From Myxococcales bacterium (GTDB taxonomy: Bacteria; Myxococcota_A; UBA9160; UBA4427): DNA of 48,765 nucleotides. The translations under genes and the position numbers were made by a program. Location of the stretch: positions 1-48,765 of the forward strand of contig JADFNE010000032.1 in NCBI GenBank assembly GCA_022563535.1, in the 5' to 3' direction. The notes beneath the pieces are model-generated. The model made no database searches. It was given only the letters and a program-made list of their open reading frames with translations, and was not told the DNA's origin. Shown piece after piece: positions 1 through 31,057 of the stretch; the stretch's first letter is position 1, and every line of letters begins with the position of its first letter.

Positions 1-570
1 CTTCACCCTGTGGTGAAGGCCATCATCCTTCATTTCTGGCTCGCTTATGACCATCCCTTCATCGACGGAAATGGTCGAACAGCGAGAGCCCTGTTCTATT
101 GGTCAATGCTGTCGCAAGACTACTGGTTGATTGAATACGTATCGATTTCCAGCATTCTTCGGAAGGCACCAGCCAAGTACGGACGCTCTTTCCCCTATAC
201 CGAAACCGATGAGAATGACATCACGTACTTCATCGATGCCCAGCTCCATGTGATTGGAAGGGCGATCACTGAGCTTCACAACTATTTGGCCAGAAAGATG
301 AATGAAGTTCGCAAGACCGAGCAGCTTCTTCGGTCTTCTGTTCAGCTGAATCACCGGCAGCTAGCACTGTTAAGCCACGCGCTACGTCACCCCGGAACGC
401 GTTACTCAATCGAATCCCACAGACGAAGCCACGACATCACCTATCAGACCGCGCGCTCAGATCTTCTCGATCTCACGGATAAAGACGTGCTCATTAAATC
501 GCGTTCAGGGAAGGCGTACCAATTTACTCCAGTGCATGACCTGTACGAATGCCTAAAGTCTCTCGCCTAG
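1..570 (+). CDS. Fic family protein, C-terminal part (5' end outside window)
   Basis: The reading frame is open to the left edge, so this is the C-terminal 189 residues of a longer protein. It carries the Fic signature HPFIDGNGRTAR, with the catalytic His and the phosphate-binding GNGR loop. Fic enzymes transfer AMP or another NMP from a nucleotide to a target protein hydroxyl. About 60 residues after the motif, the C-terminus (around SIESHRRSHDITYQTARSDL) looks like a winged-helix domain, the usual arrangement in class II Fic proteins. The inhibitory helix motif, if present, would lie outside the window, so activity control cannot be judged. It sits at the start of a run of cassette-like accessory genes. 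Fic assignment is secure; the target is unknown. Confidence 0.93.
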   Translation, partial: LHPVVKAIILHFWLAYDHPFIDGNGRTARALFYWSMLSQDYWLIEYVSISSILRKAPAKYGRSFPYTETDENDITYFIDAQLHVIGRAITELHNYLARKMNEVRKTEQLLRSSVQLNHRQLALLSHALRHPGTRYSIESHRRSHDITYQTARSDLLDLTDKDVLIKSRSGKAYQFTPVHDLYECLKSLA

Positions 571-766
571 AGTAGCCTGACTGCAAGTTCAAAGTGCATT
601 AAAACTCGAGCCTATCACGAACTCCTCCAGGGCGTGCTGACCGGTCGGGCAGGCTAGGGCTCGAGTCAAATTGAACCGTGGTATTCTGCGAACGTATCTG
701 GCGAGTCAGCCGCGGCGCCAGGTTGCCGCCTGCCGCTGAACGCCAAACCGTTGGGCGGCAAACTTG
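571..766 (+). other. Intergenic leader with attC-like 3' arm before first paralog
   Basis: There is no gene here. An inverted repeat (ctcgagcc at 605-612, ggctcgag at 658-665) follows the Fic gene. The segment gagtcaaattgaaccgtg (663-680) recurs with one mismatch at 1763-1780, upstream of the second paralog. The 3' end, around 731-757, reads ccgctgaacgcc, then aaacc, then GTTGGGC (750-756). This matches the right arm of an integron attC site (consensus GTTRRRY), and the next ORF starts 10 nt later, as cassette ORFs commonly do. No complementary RYYYAAC left arm could be found, so this is called a half or decayed site. Confidence 0.5.
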
Positions 767-1239
767 ATGCTTGAAGACCTTGGAAATATCGCTGACCTGA
801 TCGCGGCGATTGCAACCATCGCAACTCTCGGGTACCTCGCGTTCCAGGTCAAACAAAATACGAAGGCCCTCCGGGGTTCGTCGGCTGAAACGGTCATGGA
901 GAGTGAAATCGCTGCCGTTGCATTGACTACTCAACACATCAACGTCTTTCGACGCGGCAATGACAACATTTCAGAGTTGAATGCTGATGAGAGGGCTGTG
1001 TATGACCAACTCATATTTATCGAAATCTCGCAAACCTGGTCCGCGTTCACTCAATATCAGAGCGGACTGATGAGTGAGGTCACGTTCGCAGCGTTTCGCA
1101 CTTCATGGGTACGCTCAATGAGGAACCCGGGTTTTCGAATCTCTTGGGCGGAACAAAAAAAATATTTCCGGAGGATTTTTGCCGATGCTTCGACGAATTG
1201 TCCGCTGCCAGCGAGAGTGCTGCCCCGCTTCCAGATTGA
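767..1239 (+). pseudogene. Membrane-anchored hypothetical protein, frameshifted at an A8 run (paralog of 1877-2347)
   Basis: The N-terminus (MLEDLGNIADLIAAIATIATLGYLAFQVKQNT) is a single membrane helix followed by a soluble domain. It is collinear with the protein at 1877-2347: YLAFQVKQNTK versus YLAFQIRQNTK, then shared spacing of ADERAVYDQL/DERAAYGYL and NPGFRISWAE/RPGFRQIWSE. At the run of eight A (1155-1162) the frame leaves the homology and would run on to 1318 with an unrelated tail. Re-reading one base restores IFPEDFCRCFDELSAASES up to a TGA at 1237-1239. This matches the paralog's WPKEFSQCLDEAVASSE and gives the same length (157 versus 156 residues). A base is therefore missing in the sequence, or the gene is genuinely broken, or it relies on -1 slippage. 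Start ATG 767 lies 10 nt after an attC-like core. Function unknown. Confidence 0.72.
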
Positions 1240-1329
1240 AGTCCGCGGATTCTCCGTGCGAATCAGTACCGGCGTGCAGTTTGATCGGCGTGCCCAGCAC
1301 TGGTCAAGGCAAGCTTAGGAGGACTAAAT

Positions 1330-1734
1330 ATGATTACAGGTCGGTGTGAATGCGGCAGCGTACAGTATCAAGTCGATGGCGAGATCAACGACTTCAGTCA
1401 CTGCCATTGCAGTCAGTGTCGACGGCTCCATGGTGCCGCCTTCGCGACGTACGCCGGTGTTGTACGCAACGAATTCTCCTTTCTATCGGGGCAGCAGGAT
1501 CTAACGAGGTATGGGTCATCACATGATCACACCCGTGTGTTTTGCCGCATCTGCGGGTCCAATATCCTGGTTGAACTCGATTTCGAACCGGAAGCCGTTT
1601 ACCTGGCAATGGGCACGGTAGACGGTGATCCAAAGTGTCCTCCCGCCTACCACATCTTTGTCGGCTCGAAGGCACCCTGGTACAACTTTGATGATTCGTC
1701 TGTGCGGCATGACACTTTTCCGGAGGATGAGTGA
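1330..1734 (+). CDS. GFA family (Gfa-like, CENP-V fold) zinc protein
   Basis: The 134-residue protein starts MITGRCECGSVQYQV. It carries paired Cys motifs for two zinc sites: C-x-C near residues 6-8, HCHCSQC near 25-31 and CRIC near 74-77. Full-length glutathione-dependent formaldehyde-activating (GFA) family proteins have this size and layout. Family members are named for S-hydroxymethylglutathione synthase, but most small homologues have no proven substrate. A strong AGGAGG at 1317-1322 sits 7 nt before ATG 1330, unlike the neighbouring ORFs. GFA proteins are frequent integron cassette cargo, which fits the surrounding core sites, but I see no complete attC directly after this gene. Family call firm; reaction not. 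Confidence 0.9.
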   Translation: MITGRCECGSVQYQVDGEINDFSHCHCSQCRRLHGAAFATYAGVVRNEFSFLSGQQDLTRYGSSHDHTRVFCRICGSNILVELDFEPEAVYLAMGTVDGDPKCPPAYHIFVGSKAPWYNFDDSSVRHDTFPEDE

Positions 1735-1876
1735 GCTGCCTGTCAGCCGACAACGACCAGCAGAGTCAAATTGATCCGTGTTACCGTTCTGGCGGCGCTG
1801 CAGTCCCAACGTTGGTGGTCAGCGCTAGTCGTTGCGGCTGAAACCCAGGCCGTGATGTGGCGCCGAAAGGAAATTG
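1735..1876 (+). other. Leader of second paralog, duplicated from 663-766
   Basis: This gap repeats gagtcaaattgatccgtg (1763-1780), found with one mismatch at 663-680. It also contains gcggctgaaacccaggccgt (1835-1854), which aligns with the attC-like arm before the first paralog but has lost the GTTGGGC core. A palindrome tcccaacgttgg lies at 1804-1815. Leader and gene therefore appear to have been duplicated together. An AAAGGA at 1866-1871 sits 5 nt from ATG 1877 and probably serves as the ribosome-binding site. Confidence 0.5.
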
Positions 1877-2347
1877 ATGAACTGGAACGCGGTAGCGGCC
1901 ATTTCCGAAGCGTTGGGCGCAGTGGGTGTGATCGTAACGGTGATTTACCTTGCGTTTCAAATTCGACAGAACACGAAGTCGATTCAGGGGGCTACTGAAC
2001 AGACCCTCATGAATGCAGAGGTGGACGTGTTCGGATTGTGGGCGCAGCACGCGAGTGTGGCTCGGCGCGGTGACGCTGATCTTGGTGATTTAGATCCAGA
2101 CGAGAGGGCGGCGTACGGGTATCTCGTGAGCGCGGAGATGTCCCAGCTGTATGGTGCATTCGTTCAGTACCAGCGAAAACTCATACCCGAATCTGTTTGG
2201 GTGGCGTATTTAAATAGTTGGCGGGACGTCGTCAATAGGCCGGGGTTCCGACAGATTTGGTCCGAAATTCAAACGAGCTGGCCGAAAGAATTCAGCCAGT
2301 GCCTCGACGAGGCCGTGGCGAGTTCGGAAGGGTCGCTCAATTGCTAG
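1877..2347 (+). CDS. Membrane-anchored hypothetical protein (intact paralog of 767-1239)
   Basis: The 156-residue protein has one N-terminal membrane helix (about residues 5-30, AISEALGAVGVIVTVIYLAFQIRQ) and a cytosolic helical domain. That domain has conserved features shared with the frameshifted copy upstream: Q-N-T-K after the helix, DERAAY, SQLYGAFVQYQ, and RPGFRQIW. Proteins with this layout are common hypotheticals in marine and environmental bacteria, and no activity is known to me. ATG 1877 is chosen over TTG 1874 because an AAAGGA precedes it. The stop codon TAG (2345-2347) overlaps a GTTAGGC core at 2347-2353, placing the gene at a cassette boundary. Confidence 0.75.
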   Translation: MNWNAVAAISEALGAVGVIVTVIYLAFQIRQNTKSIQGATEQTLMNAEVDVFGLWAQHASVARRGDADLGDLDPDERAAYGYLVSAEMSQLYGAFVQYQRKLIPESVWVAYLNSWRDVVNRPGFRQIWSEIQTSWPKEFSQCLDEAVASSEGSLNC

Positions 2348-2353
2348 TTAGGC
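2347..2353 (+). other. attC-like core site GTTAGGC
   Basis: The heptamer GTTAGGC fits the integron core consensus GTTRRRY. The extended decamer GTTAGGCGGC recurs as GTTGGGCGGC at 750-759 and 2807-2816. An ORF starts 11 nt downstream in each of two cases (767 and this one) and 12 nt downstream in the third (2826). No left arm of this site is visible because it would lie inside the preceding gene, so on its own the call is weak. It gains weight from the series. Confidence 0.45.
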
Positions 2354-2364
2354 GGCATGAGATA

Positions 2365-2601
2365 GTGTCGAAACACATTTCAATCGCTCTCCTACTCCGC
2401 ACCCTGGTCGGTTGCAGTGTATTCGCAGCTCCCATCTTCGTGGCCTGTGACTCGAATCTTTTTTCTGAAGGTCCATCCGCTGTCTGCACGGAGTCGGGCG
2501 TACAATGTCAGCTCTCGGCAGGGCCCCTCGGCGTTTGCGAGCGGTCGCCCTGTTCGCCCGGTGCAAACTCGCCCTGCTTCCAATGCACCTCGCAGCACTA
2601 G
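2365..2601 (+). CDS. Small Cys-rich secreted or lipoprotein
   Basis: From GTG 2365 the frame encodes 78 residues: a hydrophobic N-terminus (SIALLLRTLVGCSVFAAPIF), then a short domain with a regular cysteine pattern (C-x6-C-x9-C-x4-C-x8-C-x2-C) ending QCTSQH. The hydrophobic start with LVGC or FVAC could be a lipobox, or a cleaved signal peptide. The tail resembles small Cys-rich exported proteins I associate with Myxococcota-type genomes, but this is from memory. The start is inferred: GTG 2365 is 11 nt after the GTTAGGC core, and the longer upstream frame would run through the preceding gene. The ORF is followed by a full attC site, so it is the clearest cassette cargo in the window. Confidence 0.6.
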   Translation: MSKHISIALLLRTLVGCSVFAAPIFVACDSNLFSEGPSAVCTESGVQCQLSAGPLGVCERSPCSPGANSPCFQCTSQH

Positions 2602-2685
2602 CCATCCTGCGCGACGCGCACGGGGAGTCGCCTGGTTCCGGGTTGAACCCGCCATATTTCACTCGCCGCGAATGAATGAACGTCC

Positions 2686-2813
2686 GCCCAACATGCCGTT
2701 GCACCGGGCGGGCTCACTCTTGGCCGTCACTGAGCGTGGTACCATGCCAGCTCTTCTGGTCTTCAGTGTCGGTGGTAGATCGCCGCCAGCTGCTGAATGC
2801 CGATCCGTTGGGC
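2686..2813 (+). repeat. Integron attC recombination site (128 bp)
   Basis: The left core GCCCAAC (2686-2692) is the exact reverse complement of the right core GTTGGGC (2807-2813). Inside these, atgccgttgcaccgggcggg pairs imperfectly with cgccgccagctgctgaatgc, leaving unpaired bases of the kind that orient attC folding. The centre can form further stems around gtggtaccatgcc. Length, core consensus (RYYYAAC...GTTRRRY) and imperfect L boxes are all typical of attC. The next ORF begins 12 nt after the right core. This is the best evidence that 1-3330 is a cassette array. No tyrosine recombinase IntI gene is present in the window. Confidence 0.75.
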
Positions 2814-2825
2814 GGCCAGAAACCG

Positions 2826-3329
2826 ATGCGTCTCGCTTTGGCCATTGTCGCTGCGATCTTGAACCTGGCGGACGCAAGTCTGGCCAGTGCGTGCCGGTGC
2901 CTTCCAAACGACACGGTCGAGGCTCAGTACGAACGGGCCGAGCTGGTCTTTTTCGGTCGAGTCACCTTCCACAACGGCGCAGAGAGTCGCGAGACCCAGC
3001 GGCGGTTCTGGGAGTTCGAGGTGGAAGGTGTTTGGAAGGGTCCCGTTCAGCAGAAGATTCGGATCTACGCGCATTCACCCAAAAGCGGAGAATTCACTAG
3101 CTGCGACCGCGAGCTGGAGATCGGACAAATGTACCTCGTCTTCGCGAGTACGTTTCAGGGCTATCCCGGGCGTTTCCAGGCAGGCAAGTGCTCAGGAACC
3201 GTGGTGGGTGCCGACGCCATAGAAGCTCTTGGCGTGATCGGTGCCCCAACCCATCGGTTCTCAAGGAACCAGGACGAAGTTGGTAGCCGCGTCGTCGAAC
3301 ATCTGGATCGTAAGGCCGCTGTCGTTTGA
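2826..3329 (+). CDS. Secreted TIMP/netrin-like (NTR fold) protein
   Basis: ATG 2826 gives 167 residues. A signal peptide (MRLALAIVAAILNLADASLASA) is predicted to be cut just before CRCLPND, so the mature protein would begin Cys-x-Cys. The following YERAELVFFGRVTF, then VEGVWKGPVQQKIRIYAH and CDRELEIGQMYLVFA, follow the pattern of the tissue-inhibitor-of-metalloproteinase / netrin OB fold. In animal TIMPs the free N-terminal Cys binds the protease zinc; bacterial homologues are mostly uncharacterised. The gene lies 12 nt after an attC site, so it is probably cassette-borne. Its last 69 bases overlap the 3' end of the opposite-strand gene at 3261, so the C-terminus after about residue 140 may be read-through. 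Fold call good, function inferred. Confidence 0.7.
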   Translation: MRLALAIVAAILNLADASLASACRCLPNDTVEAQYERAELVFFGRVTFHNGAESRETQRRFWEFEVEGVWKGPVQQKIRIYAHSPKSGEFTSCDRELEIGQMYLVFASTFQGYPGRFQAGKCSGTVVGADAIEALGVIGAPTHRFSRNQDEVGSRVVEHLDRKAAVV

Positions 3330-4499
3330 GTGGACGATCACGATCTCGTCTATTCCGTCTTCGTCGAAGTCGATGGCGACGGGGACGACGTTTCCGTCGA
3401 AGTTGGCGAGTTGTGCGTCCTCGGCTGCCGTCAGGTAGCCCGAATCGAGGCCCGGGTTCTGCATCGGCGCGAGGTTTTGGTTGGCGTCGTCAAGGATCAA
3501 GACCTGGTCGGCGAGGGGGCGCTTGAAGGTGATGACGATCTCGTCCAGGCCGTCGTTGTCGAAGTCGCCGGAAGCGGTGTGGAGTTCGCCGTTGCCACCC
3601 GCACCGAGGATGTCCAGAGCGACTTGCATCACGCCCTTGGCTGATCCGGGGAGTGCGAAGTACTTGAAGCCAGTCGTGATGTCGTCCAGGATCTGGAGCT
3701 GGTTGTCCCCGCCGCTGCCCGAACTCACGATCAATTCCTGGTACCCGTCACCGTCGATGTCTCCGCAGGACACGTGGTTTTCTATGACGCGCGCGTAGCC
3801 GTCGAGGAAGTCCGCCCGCACTTTGATCGTTCTTTCGGAAATGCCGCCCGAGCCGTTGGGTCGCCGGTTTCGGATCAAGATTCGGCCGGATTCGCGGCGC
3901 ATGCGCTTGGATTTGGCATTGCTCAGCAGGTTGGTCAGCACGAGATCCACAACGCCGTCGCCCTCGAGGTCGCAGATCGTGTACTCGGTCCCGTAGGAGA
4001 TTTGATTCTTGATGTTCTTGAAGCTTTTGAACTCTTGGGGAAGAGCGTCAAAGGATCCGCTGCTGTCCTCTTCGGTGGCCACACCCATTACGCCCAGGGT
4101 GGCCGCTTCGATGGACATTTCTTCGGAAGTCATTGGCTCATCGGGCACTGCCGCGAGAACCAGCAGCGCATCGGAATACGGGGTCATGACCGCCATGTCA
4201 TCGTAGGCAGAGATTGAGATGAAGTTGTTCTGCGAATCTTCCAGGCTCAACGTGCTGCTCAGCACGCCACCGACCAGGTTGGGCATGCCGACGTCAATGT
4301 GCTGGTCGAAGACATCGGAGGTGGAGCCGACGTGAATCTTGTAGCCAGTGATGCTCGACTGCGCTGCGGGCGCCCATCCGACCGTCACCTCGACCACATT
4401 CGCGCTGGCGCTGGCCGCGGCAAAAGTGGCGCAACTCACAAGCACGATCGCGCGAGCGAGGTGTCGATAGGTTGCGAACGCATGCTGTCTGGCTTTCAT
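3261..4499 (-). CDS. Secreted calcium-binding FN3 / VCBS (FG-GAP) repeat protein
   Basis: From ATG 4499 the 412-residue product has a signal peptide (ARAIVLVSCATFAAASASA). An N-terminal fibronectin-III-like domain follows (VTVGWAPAAQSSITGYKIHVG), then FG-GAP/VCBS propeller blades. Each blade carries an EF-hand-like loop: DLEGDGVVDLVL, DIDGDGYQELIV, DFDNDGLDEIVI and DFDEDGIDEIVI. Such proteins are exported, calcium-stabilised and usually act in surface adhesion or binding. A GTG at 4547 would extend the N-terminus, but 4499 places the signal peptide properly. The region upstream holds a cluster of hairpins (4597-4691), and pckA terminates just before it. No enzymatic motif is seen. Confidence 0.8.
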   Translation of the reverse strand: MKARQHAFATYRHLARAIVLVSCATFAAASASANVVEVTVGWAPAAQSSITGYKIHVGSTSDVFDQHIDVGMPNLVGGVLSSTLSLEDSQNNFISISAYDDMAVMTPYSDALLVLAAVPDEPMTSEEMSIEAATLGVMGVATEEDSSGSFDALPQEFKSFKNIKNQISYGTEYTICDLEGDGVVDLVLTNLLSNAKSKRMRRESGRILIRNRRPNGSGGISERTIKVRADFLDGYARVIENHVSCGDIDGDGYQELIVSSGSGGDNQLQILDDITTGFKYFALPGSAKGVMQVALDILGAGGNGELHTASGDFDNDGLDEIVITFKRPLADQVLILDDANQNLAPMQNPGLDSGYLTAAEDAQLANFDGNVVPVAIDFDEDGIDEIVIVHSNDSGLTIQMFDDAATNFVLVP

Positions 4500-4596
4500 G
4501 CTCGATTCATCGGGAGCGAGCCAGACTGCAAAGGTGATCTTCCTCACAAGTGCTGTGAAAGATTCACCTAAATCCGAAAATTACCCCGGGGAGTGT

Positions 4597-4745: not shown

Positions 4746-6287
4746 CTAGTTGAACTTTACCTCGTTGTTCGAAAACAATTGAGCAAGCTTGCGCGCCGCT
4801 TCGTCGTAGGCCGCGGAATCCGCCCAGGTATTTTTCGGGTTGAGAATCTCGGTCGGGACGTTTGCGCAAGTCGTCGGGACGCTGAGCCCGAAGAAGGGGT
4901 CTGTCATGACTTCGGCGCCAGCGAGACTGCCGTCGTGGATCGCGTCGATGATGGCCCGGGTCCAGGCGAGCTTCATGCGCTTACCGACTCCGTAGCCACC
5001 GCCGCTCCAGCCCGTGTTAACCAGCCAGGCGTGGGTGTTCTGGGCCTCCATCTTCTTGGCGAGCATTTCGCCGTAGACCTTGGGGTGGCGCACCAGGAAC
5101 GCGGCACCGAAGCAGGCGGAGAAGGTCGCCTCGGGTTCGGTGACGCCCATCTCCGTGCCCGCGACCTTGGCGGTGTAGCCGGCCAGAAACTGCTGCATTG
5201 CTTGTTCGGAGGAGAGGCGGCTCACCGGGGGGAGCACGCCAAAGGCATCGCAGGTCAAGAAGATGATGTTGCTCGGATGCCCGCCGATACAGGGTACGAC
5301 GACATTCGGAATGAAGTCGATCGGGTAGGAGGCCCGGGTGTTGACGGTCAGCGAATAGTCGCTGTAGTCGACCACGCGCGTGGCAGCGTCGAACACGACG
5401 TTCTCGAGCACGGTGCCAAAGCGGATGGCGCGGAAGATGTCTGGCTCCTCTTCCTCGCTCAGATCAATTGCCTTCGCGTAGCAGCCGCCTTCAATGTTGA
5501 AGATGCCTTCTTCGCTCCAGCAGTGTTCGTCGTCGCCGATCAAGAATCGCTTGGGGTCTGCAGAGAGCGTCGTCTTGCCCGTGCCCGAAAGGCCGAAGAA
5601 GATCGAGACATCCTTGTCTGCGCCCATATTGGCGCTGCAATGCATGGAAAGCACGCCTTTGTCGGGCATCAGATAGTGCATGATCGAGAATACGCCCTTC
5701 TTCATCTCGCCAGCGTACTGCGTGCCGAGAATGACGAACTCGCTCTTTTCGAAGTTGATCGCCACGCTGGCATCAGACGTCACGCCCTCGACTGTGGTGT
5801 CGGCGGACTGCGCGCCGGCGTTGAAGATGACGTAGTCGGGTTCGCCAAAGTTCTCGAGTTCAGAGGCGTTCGGACGCATCAACATGTTGTGCATGAAGAG
5901 TGCGTGATAGGGGCGCGAACAGATGACGCGAATGGAGAGTCGGTAGCGGGGGTCCCAACCCGCCCAACCGTCGACCACATAGAGACGTTCCTGGGCATTC
6001 AGATAGTCGATGGCGATGCGGCGATTTTTTTCAAAGGAGTCGGGGGACAGAGGAATGTTGACGTCGCCCCACCAAATGTTGTCTCGGCTGGTCGGGTGGT
6101 CGACGATGCGTTTGTCCTTGGGACTGCGACCTGTCTTGGCGCCAGAGATCGCGACCATCGCGCCGCTCGAAGTCAACGAACTTCCGTCATACGCAGTGCC
6201 GTGTTCGTAGAGTTCTGCGGGGGAGAGGTTGCGGAGGATCTCCTTGGACGTGATTCCGTACTGATTGAGCTCAATGCTCAGTGCCAT
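4746..6287 (-). CDS. pckA: Phosphoenolpyruvate carboxykinase (ATP)
   Basis: The 513-residue protein catalyses oxaloacetate + ATP to phosphoenolpyruvate + CO2 + ADP in the cytosol, the entry step of gluconeogenesis. It has the ATP-type kinase-1a P-loop GLSGTGKTTLS (about residues 232-242). Upstream is the oxaloacetate-binding region with SGAKTGRSPKDKRIV, and the kinase-2 / metal region HCWSEEGIFNIEGGCYAK lies just after the P-loop. Length is near the usual 520-540. ATG 6287 is the natural start. Transcription ends at the hairpin at 4662-4691. It stands alone, with no partner in an operon. Confidence 0.97.
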   Translation of the reverse strand: MALSIELNQYGITSKEILRNLSPAELYEHGTAYDGSSLTSSGAMVAISGAKTGRSPKDKRIVDHPTSRDNIWWGDVNIPLSPDSFEKNRRIAIDYLNAQERLYVVDGWAGWDPRYRLSIRVICSRPYHALFMHNMLMRPNASELENFGEPDYVIFNAGAQSADTTVEGVTSDASVAINFEKSEFVILGTQYAGEMKKGVFSIMHYLMPDKGVLSMHCSANMGADKDVSIFFGLSGTGKTTLSADPKRFLIGDDEHCWSEEGIFNIEGGCYAKAIDLSEEEEPDIFRAIRFGTVLENVVFDAATRVVDYSDYSLTVNTRASYPIDFIPNVVVPCIGGHPSNIIFLTCDAFGVLPPVSRLSSEQAMQQFLAGYTAKVAGTEMGVTEPEATFSACFGAAFLVRHPKVYGEMLAKKMEAQNTHAWLVNTGWSGGGYGVGKRMKLAWTRAIIDAIHDGSLAGAEVMTDPFFGLSVPTTCANVPTEILNPKNTWADSAAYDEAARKLAQLFSNNEVKFN

Positions 6288-30883: not shown

Positions 30884-30965
30884 TTTTGGGGCCGATCAGT
30901 GAGGTTGGTCACAGTGTGACTGCGGCCAGCGGAGCTCGGACGAACCTGTCGTTCTGATGGCTCCT

Positions 30966-31057
30966 CGAAAAGAGCAAACCCAGCGAAAGCTGGGGACGCA
31001 AAGCCAGTGCCCTATTTCGGAAAACGCTTCCGAGCGGGTCGAACGGCTACCGAAGGG
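30966..31057 (+). ncRNA. Cyclic di-GMP-I (GEMM) riboswitch
   Basis: The aptamer shows the GEMM-I conserved blocks in order: agcaaaccc, a gcGAAAgc tetraloop hairpin, ggggacgcaaagcc, a variable second hairpin, and ggctaccgaagg closing P1. Its 3' end runs into the ggagc ribosome-binding site (31055-31059) of the lytic transglycosylase whose ATG is 31066. Ligand binding can therefore directly affect translation start. The sign of regulation cannot be fixed from sequence, and no terminator stem with a T-run is visible. Confidence 0.93.

Follow-up and report, generated by a model that had tools for sequence, protein, structure and literature searches.

A row of small genes at the left edge of contig C32 raises the question of whether these genes form an integron cassette array and, if so, what became of the integrase. 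The original prediction had proposed an integrase-less, CALIN-like cassette cluster whose integrase lies outside the window or has been lost. The window, meaning the whole stretch of 48,765 nucleotides (48.8 kb) analyzed here, corresponds to the full length of contig C32. The draft genome it belongs to comprises 147 contigs with a total of 4.63 Mb and is about 98% complete. Two covariance models were used for attC detection. R1, with hand-written R and L stems, was trained on five sites from contigs C97 and C52, leaving the window out, and was searched over 173 kb. R2 was trained on 18 sites, all of them from other genomes. Relatives were sampled as 41 genomes of the same order.

An attC with exactly complementary cores had been predicted at 2686-2813, with a covariance model proposed as the check. 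Both models recovered this site, R1 with 82.3 bits (E 2.4e-15; E 6.5e-14 in a whole-genome scan) and R2 with 72.4 bits (E 4.4e-16), and the boxes R'' (GCCCAAC) and R' (GTTGGGC), exact complements of each other, lie where they had been placed. Across the 48.8 kb window, R2 reported three sites only, all on the plus strand (2681-2817, 629-760 and 1733-1854), and these matches support a cassette cluster at the left edge. Sites of the same type were found on C97, C52, C70, C109, C7 and C2 in scans with R1 and R2. An Rfam scan of the window left the attC family unmatched; it placed a c-di-GMP-I riboswitch aptamer at 30963-31054 (plus strand, 64.7 bits). Among 74 distinct sites, 92% of the R and L stem positions pair and 11 of 20 stem pairs show changes on both sides, in an alignment that is biased towards the model, having been fitted to it. 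Sliding the partner strand by 1-3 columns lowered the pairing to 20-42%. An unpaired G in L'' is kept in 76 of 81 sites; such an extrahelical base is a known trait of attC. The intact site in the window combines complementary R''/R' and L''/L' boxes with the extrahelical base. Free-energy folding of the 2686-2813 site alone, on both strands, was not diagnostic (z about -1.2).

The decamer GTTRGGCGGC was found on the plus strand at 750, 2347 and 2807, as had been reported, with the genes starting 7-9 nt past it (ATG 767, GTG 2365, ATG 2826) and not 10-12 nt as first given. Genome-wide it occurs in 55 copies, compared with 49 for the reversed control, which is chance level, and it was therefore dropped as evidence; three copies on one strand within 2.1 kb are above chance (about 0.012 expected at the genome-wide rate). 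For the 28-nt L'-R' box GCYGNTGAAYGCCGATCCGTTGGGCGGC, which was derived from other contigs, a search of the 4.63 Mb with up to three mismatches gave 10 places, and one with its reversed control gave none. Two of the ten places are in the window, at 2789-2816 (0 mismatches) and 732-759 (2 mismatches).

Table 1. Features of the array in the window, its chromosomal right flank and the attI site on C97.
Feature	Position	Strand	Remarks
Fic-domain gene, 3' part, SoFic-like	1-570	+	Pfam Fic 43 bits; PADLOC SoFic E 6e-22
attC, degenerate	about 629-760	+	R1 54.1 bits, E 1.9e-9; R2 31.6 bits, E 6e-6 (match at 634-760)
Small membrane-anchored protein	764-1318	+	Recurrent cassette family; 38% identity to 1874-2347
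GFA-family gene	1330-1734	+	Pfam GFA 95 bits
attC relic	1733-1854	+	R2 24 bits, E 5e-4; R1 13.2 bits, weak
Paralogue of 764-1318	1874-2347	+	Its stop codon coincides with the crossover of the following junction
attI-like junction	2333-2353	+	TCGCTCAATTGCTA followed by GTTAGGC; attI weight matrix
Small Cys-rich ORF	2365-2601	+	Start resembles a signal peptide; belongs to the last complete cassette; ORF reading
attC, intact	2681-2817	+	R'' 2686-2692, L'' with extrahelical G, L', R' 2807-2813
Last gene, past the final attC	2826-3329	+	Homologues at different loci in G001 and G002
FG-GAP repeat protein, chromosomal right flank	3261-4547	-	Orthologue adjoins PEPCK in G003
PEPCK (ATP), chromosomal right flank	4746-6287	-	Orthologues 82% identical, near CoA-transferase/SDR, in three congeners
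attI	C97 5258-5278	-	GGTTAATAACTA followed by GTTRGGC; behind intI relic

The cassettes all point in one direction, with genes starting just past R' (Table 1). The Fic gene, truncated by the contig edge, is the first visible cassette gene, and 59 bp downstream of it lies a degenerate attC that has retained L' and R' (GTTGGGC, 750-756) and lost its R'' half. The 3' 109 bp of this site are 98% identical to an attC on C97 (1486-1594). The ORFs at 764 and 1330 likely form one two-gene cassette (11-nt gap, with AGGAGG between them); before 1330, similarity to an attC body was not above that of shuffled sequences. In the relic at 1733-1854 the middle is retained and R' has been mutated away, and its local alignment to the 629 site outscored 300 of 300 shuffles. 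Decayed boundaries had been proposed before 1330 and before 1877: the latter corresponds to this relic, found with R2, and at the former a site was not detected. The ORF at 2365-2601 begins 8 nt past a GTTAGGCGGC box and had no Pfam match. Beyond the final attC, the homologues of the last ORF end at about residue 148, and its roughly 19 further codons are the FG-GAP gene read antisense; the array therefore ends on its right side near 3265-3272.

For the protein family represented by 764-1318 and 1874-2347, no Pfam name was found. Of 28 loci with homologues in relatives, at least 8 directly adjoin an attC. The family carries the signature MNWxAIGAIGE..YLAFQIRQNT and reaches 22 copies per genome in relatives, inside as well as outside cassettes. 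Members of the GFA family adjoin attC in locus L066 and on contig C2 of the same genome. Products of the C97 cassettes include a hemerythrin, a PEMT-like methyltransferase, MAPEG and DUF2164 proteins and others. The cargo of both contigs is ordinary for cassettes.

The genome contains a single strong match to an integron integrase, at C97 5441-5662 on the minus strand (117 bits to TIGR02249). It covers only positions 242-314 of the 315 in the model, that is, the last ~75 residues, and the core-binding domain and the integron-specific insertion fall within the missing part. The fragment shares 86-88% identity with the corresponding region of IntI from relatives in which the gene is intact. A TIGR02249 search of the 147-contig draft found no intact intI. 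A conserved SDR gene lies directly upstream of the fragment, hence the rest of the gene was deleted rather than left unassembled. Thus, the integrase gene proved to be both outside the window and truncated. Behind the relic, an attI site heads the array, and its motif was also found behind intI in G002, G007, G013, G016 and G030. C97 reads, in order, SDR/CoA-transferase flank, intI relic, attI and seven attC sites, all in the same reading direction. A TACACT/TACAAT-like box lies upstream of attI on C97 and in several relatives, with no convincing -35 element; the cassettes would be expressed from a promoter near attI.

The two contigs can be related to each other through three congeners. In G001, the CoA-transferase, SDR and PEPCK genes are directly adjacent, with about 100 bp between the end of SDR and PEPCK. 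In G003, an unrelated ORF and an FG-GAP gene lie between SDR/CoA-transferase and PEPCK, and in G002 other ORFs do. No attC was detected at these loci in any of the three. The original prediction had named the same gene order without attC in relatives as evidence against cassettes; a search for the cassette genes at this locus in the congeners found none. In the genome studied here, the two sides are on separate contigs: SDR and CoA-transferase flank the intI relic of C97, and the array of the window on C32 is flanked by FG-GAP and PEPCK. The orientations of C97 and C32 are collinear, which suggests that the assembly broke up one chromosomal integron, the distal end of which is in the window. 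The simplest reading of the sequences would be a single integron between SDR and FG-GAP/PEPCK that was split by the assembler, with C97 and C32 as probable neighbors; among the contig ends compared between the window and the other attC contigs, C97 included, no overlap was found. C52 was considered as the missing middle piece and rejected, as its array is likewise at the end of a contig, with a chromosomal flank of its own. We put the probability at roughly 90% that the first 3265 or so positions of the window form the distal and oldest end of a chromosomal integron whose attI end is on C97.

Under this reading, IntI would once have inserted circular cassettes at the attI behind its own gene, using single-stranded hairpins of the attC bottom strand, each entry displacing earlier cassettes distally. 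The window would then hold the oldest end, whose sites have decayed. Further cassettes presumably occupy the unsequenced gap between C97 and C32. With intI truncated, reshuffling in cis would have ceased and the sites of the array would drift. Because intI is reduced to its C-terminal part, the array looks like the frozen remnant of a known type of system.

Three other explanations were weighed. An IntI acting in trans might have inserted cassettes off-target near PEPCK, independently of the C97 array. The window by itself has no integrase, and several other attC clusters in the genome lack intI (C52, C7, C109, C70, C2), in keeping with such an independent CALIN. However, the right flank of the window and the flank of C97 neighbor each other, in matching orientation, in all three congeners, and the degenerate site in the window shares 98% identity over 109 bp with an attC on C97. 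Separate insertion is consequently very improbable; the CALIN of the original prediction finds no support as an independent entity, and the synteny points to the window and C97 as two ends of one integron.

Alternatively, the integron might be whole and still active if unassembled DNA, or a sister strain that was not captured, carries an intact intI. The assembly is a draft, and intact IntI of the same type occurs in 19 of the 41 genomes, but C97 is unbroken between the conserved SDR and the intI relic, so the gene of the platform itself is truncated, and a second strong TIGR02249 match is absent from the genome. We regard this as very improbable. Hardly any chance is left for a reading without an integron, in which chance palindromes or some other dispersed repeat lie between small genes. 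The unremarkable free folding and the chance-level frequency of the decamer would agree with it, yet it is contradicted by the very low E-values from two covariance models, one of them (R2) trained on other genomes, by the covarying pairs and the extrahelical base, and by head-to-tail attC arrays behind intact intI in relatives.

Within the array of the window, the junction at 2347 differs from the others. The decamer there had been taken for the end of an attC, yet the attC body is missing: upstream of 2347, similarity was not above shuffles. Instead, the junction resembles attI. With a weight matrix built from seven attI sites behind intI genes, 2333-2353 scored 20.7 bits, and the next best place in the window 10.2. 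The left 14 nt, which were not used in picking the site, are matched or exceeded in score by only 4 of 97,502 14-mers of the window. The 2347 decamer would thus be the 3' tip of an attI and not the end of an attC, and the junction is possibly a delta-attI closure of the 1874 cassette. Further attI copies were observed on contigs that carry attC, on C52 (L019, 10-30), C7 (L103, 1253-1273) and C99 (L023, 9026-9046). They are 75-88% identical to each other and to the attI of C97 (60 bp), and no intI was found beside them. On C52 and C99, the attI is preceded by an attC 5' half (136 bp shared, 83%), making these sites attC/attI hybrids. At 2160-3323 of L103, ORFs resembling an IS3-type transposase pair lie within the attC/attI cluster of C7.

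R1 matches were found in 26 of the 41 genomes of the order, and IntI above the family cut-off in 19. The named carriers of the L'-R' box are mostly metagenome-assembled genomes (MAGs) labelled Deltaproteobacteria, Myxococcales or Myxococcota. MAGs labelled as Phycisphaerae and Dehalococcoidia carry the box on short contigs as well (L065, L069), either through transfer or through binning errors. In 10 of 11 loci of relatives in which both intI and attC could be placed, intI lies on the cassette strand and points at attI. C97 follows this arrangement, with the relic and the attC sites on the minus strand and attI at the 3' end of intI. The sole divergent, canonical platform in the order is L122 (G024:C27), whose attC sites are longer, about 180 nt. 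In the IntI tree, G024 separates from most same-strand platforms; the deep forks are weak, and a single origin of the reverse layout is hence not shown.

A wider reading is offered tentatively, at rather less than even odds: in an uncultured deltaproteobacterial order with mostly reverse integrons, one genome lost its integrase and kept attI copies and attI/attC hybrids, so that attC-less ends would arise outside clinical integrons and fossilise. The attI copies and hybrids in the window (2333) and on C52, C99 and C7 would then mean that such ends arise naturally. Several of these sites in one genome provide a natural test case for the origin of attC-less cassettes. The case shows the fate of a chromosomal integron after loss of its integrase, with sites decaying singly and cassette genes remaining. 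It also illustrates how one integron can pass for two CALINs once it is split in a draft assembly, and that flank synteny in congeners rejoins split arrays, which is applicable to other MAGs with supposedly inflated CALIN counts. The lineage is a second large group with reverse-oriented platforms. A decayed chromosomal integron is a known kind of system and the platform is unusual; the points of interest are the demonstration of the split array, the reverse layout and the attI-like junctions.

Among known systems, a CALIN is an attC cluster without an integrase, for which loss of intI is one proposed route (PMC9024848, PMC8618304). The window alone resembles one, having attC sites and no integrase, whereas by synteny it is part of an assembly-split platform with an attI and an intI relic. 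IntegronFinder 2 sets the CALIN minimum at two attC sites, and the window has one intact, one degenerate and one relic. Split arrays inflate CALIN counts in draft genomes (PMC9024848). In the Treponema integron, intI is transcribed in the cassette direction, towards attI (PMC3607928). The platform described here shares this arrangement, a likeness of layout, in a different lineage. In class 1 and 2 integrons, an attI tip substituting for attC beside the stop codon has been described (PMC12901181). The junction at 2333-2353 is alike in that a short attI 3' tip lies between the stop codon and the next cassette, although the array is chromosomal and belongs to an uncultured lineage; a longer attI stretch, fused to an attC 5' half, is present on C52 and C99. 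Unlike in a typical chromosomal integron, only the C-terminus of intI is left and the far end has decayed. As in chromosomal (sedentary) integrons, a TIGR02249-family intI and an attI stand at the head of tandem cassettes in one direction, with R''/L''/L'/R' attC sites, an extrahelical base and covarying stems.
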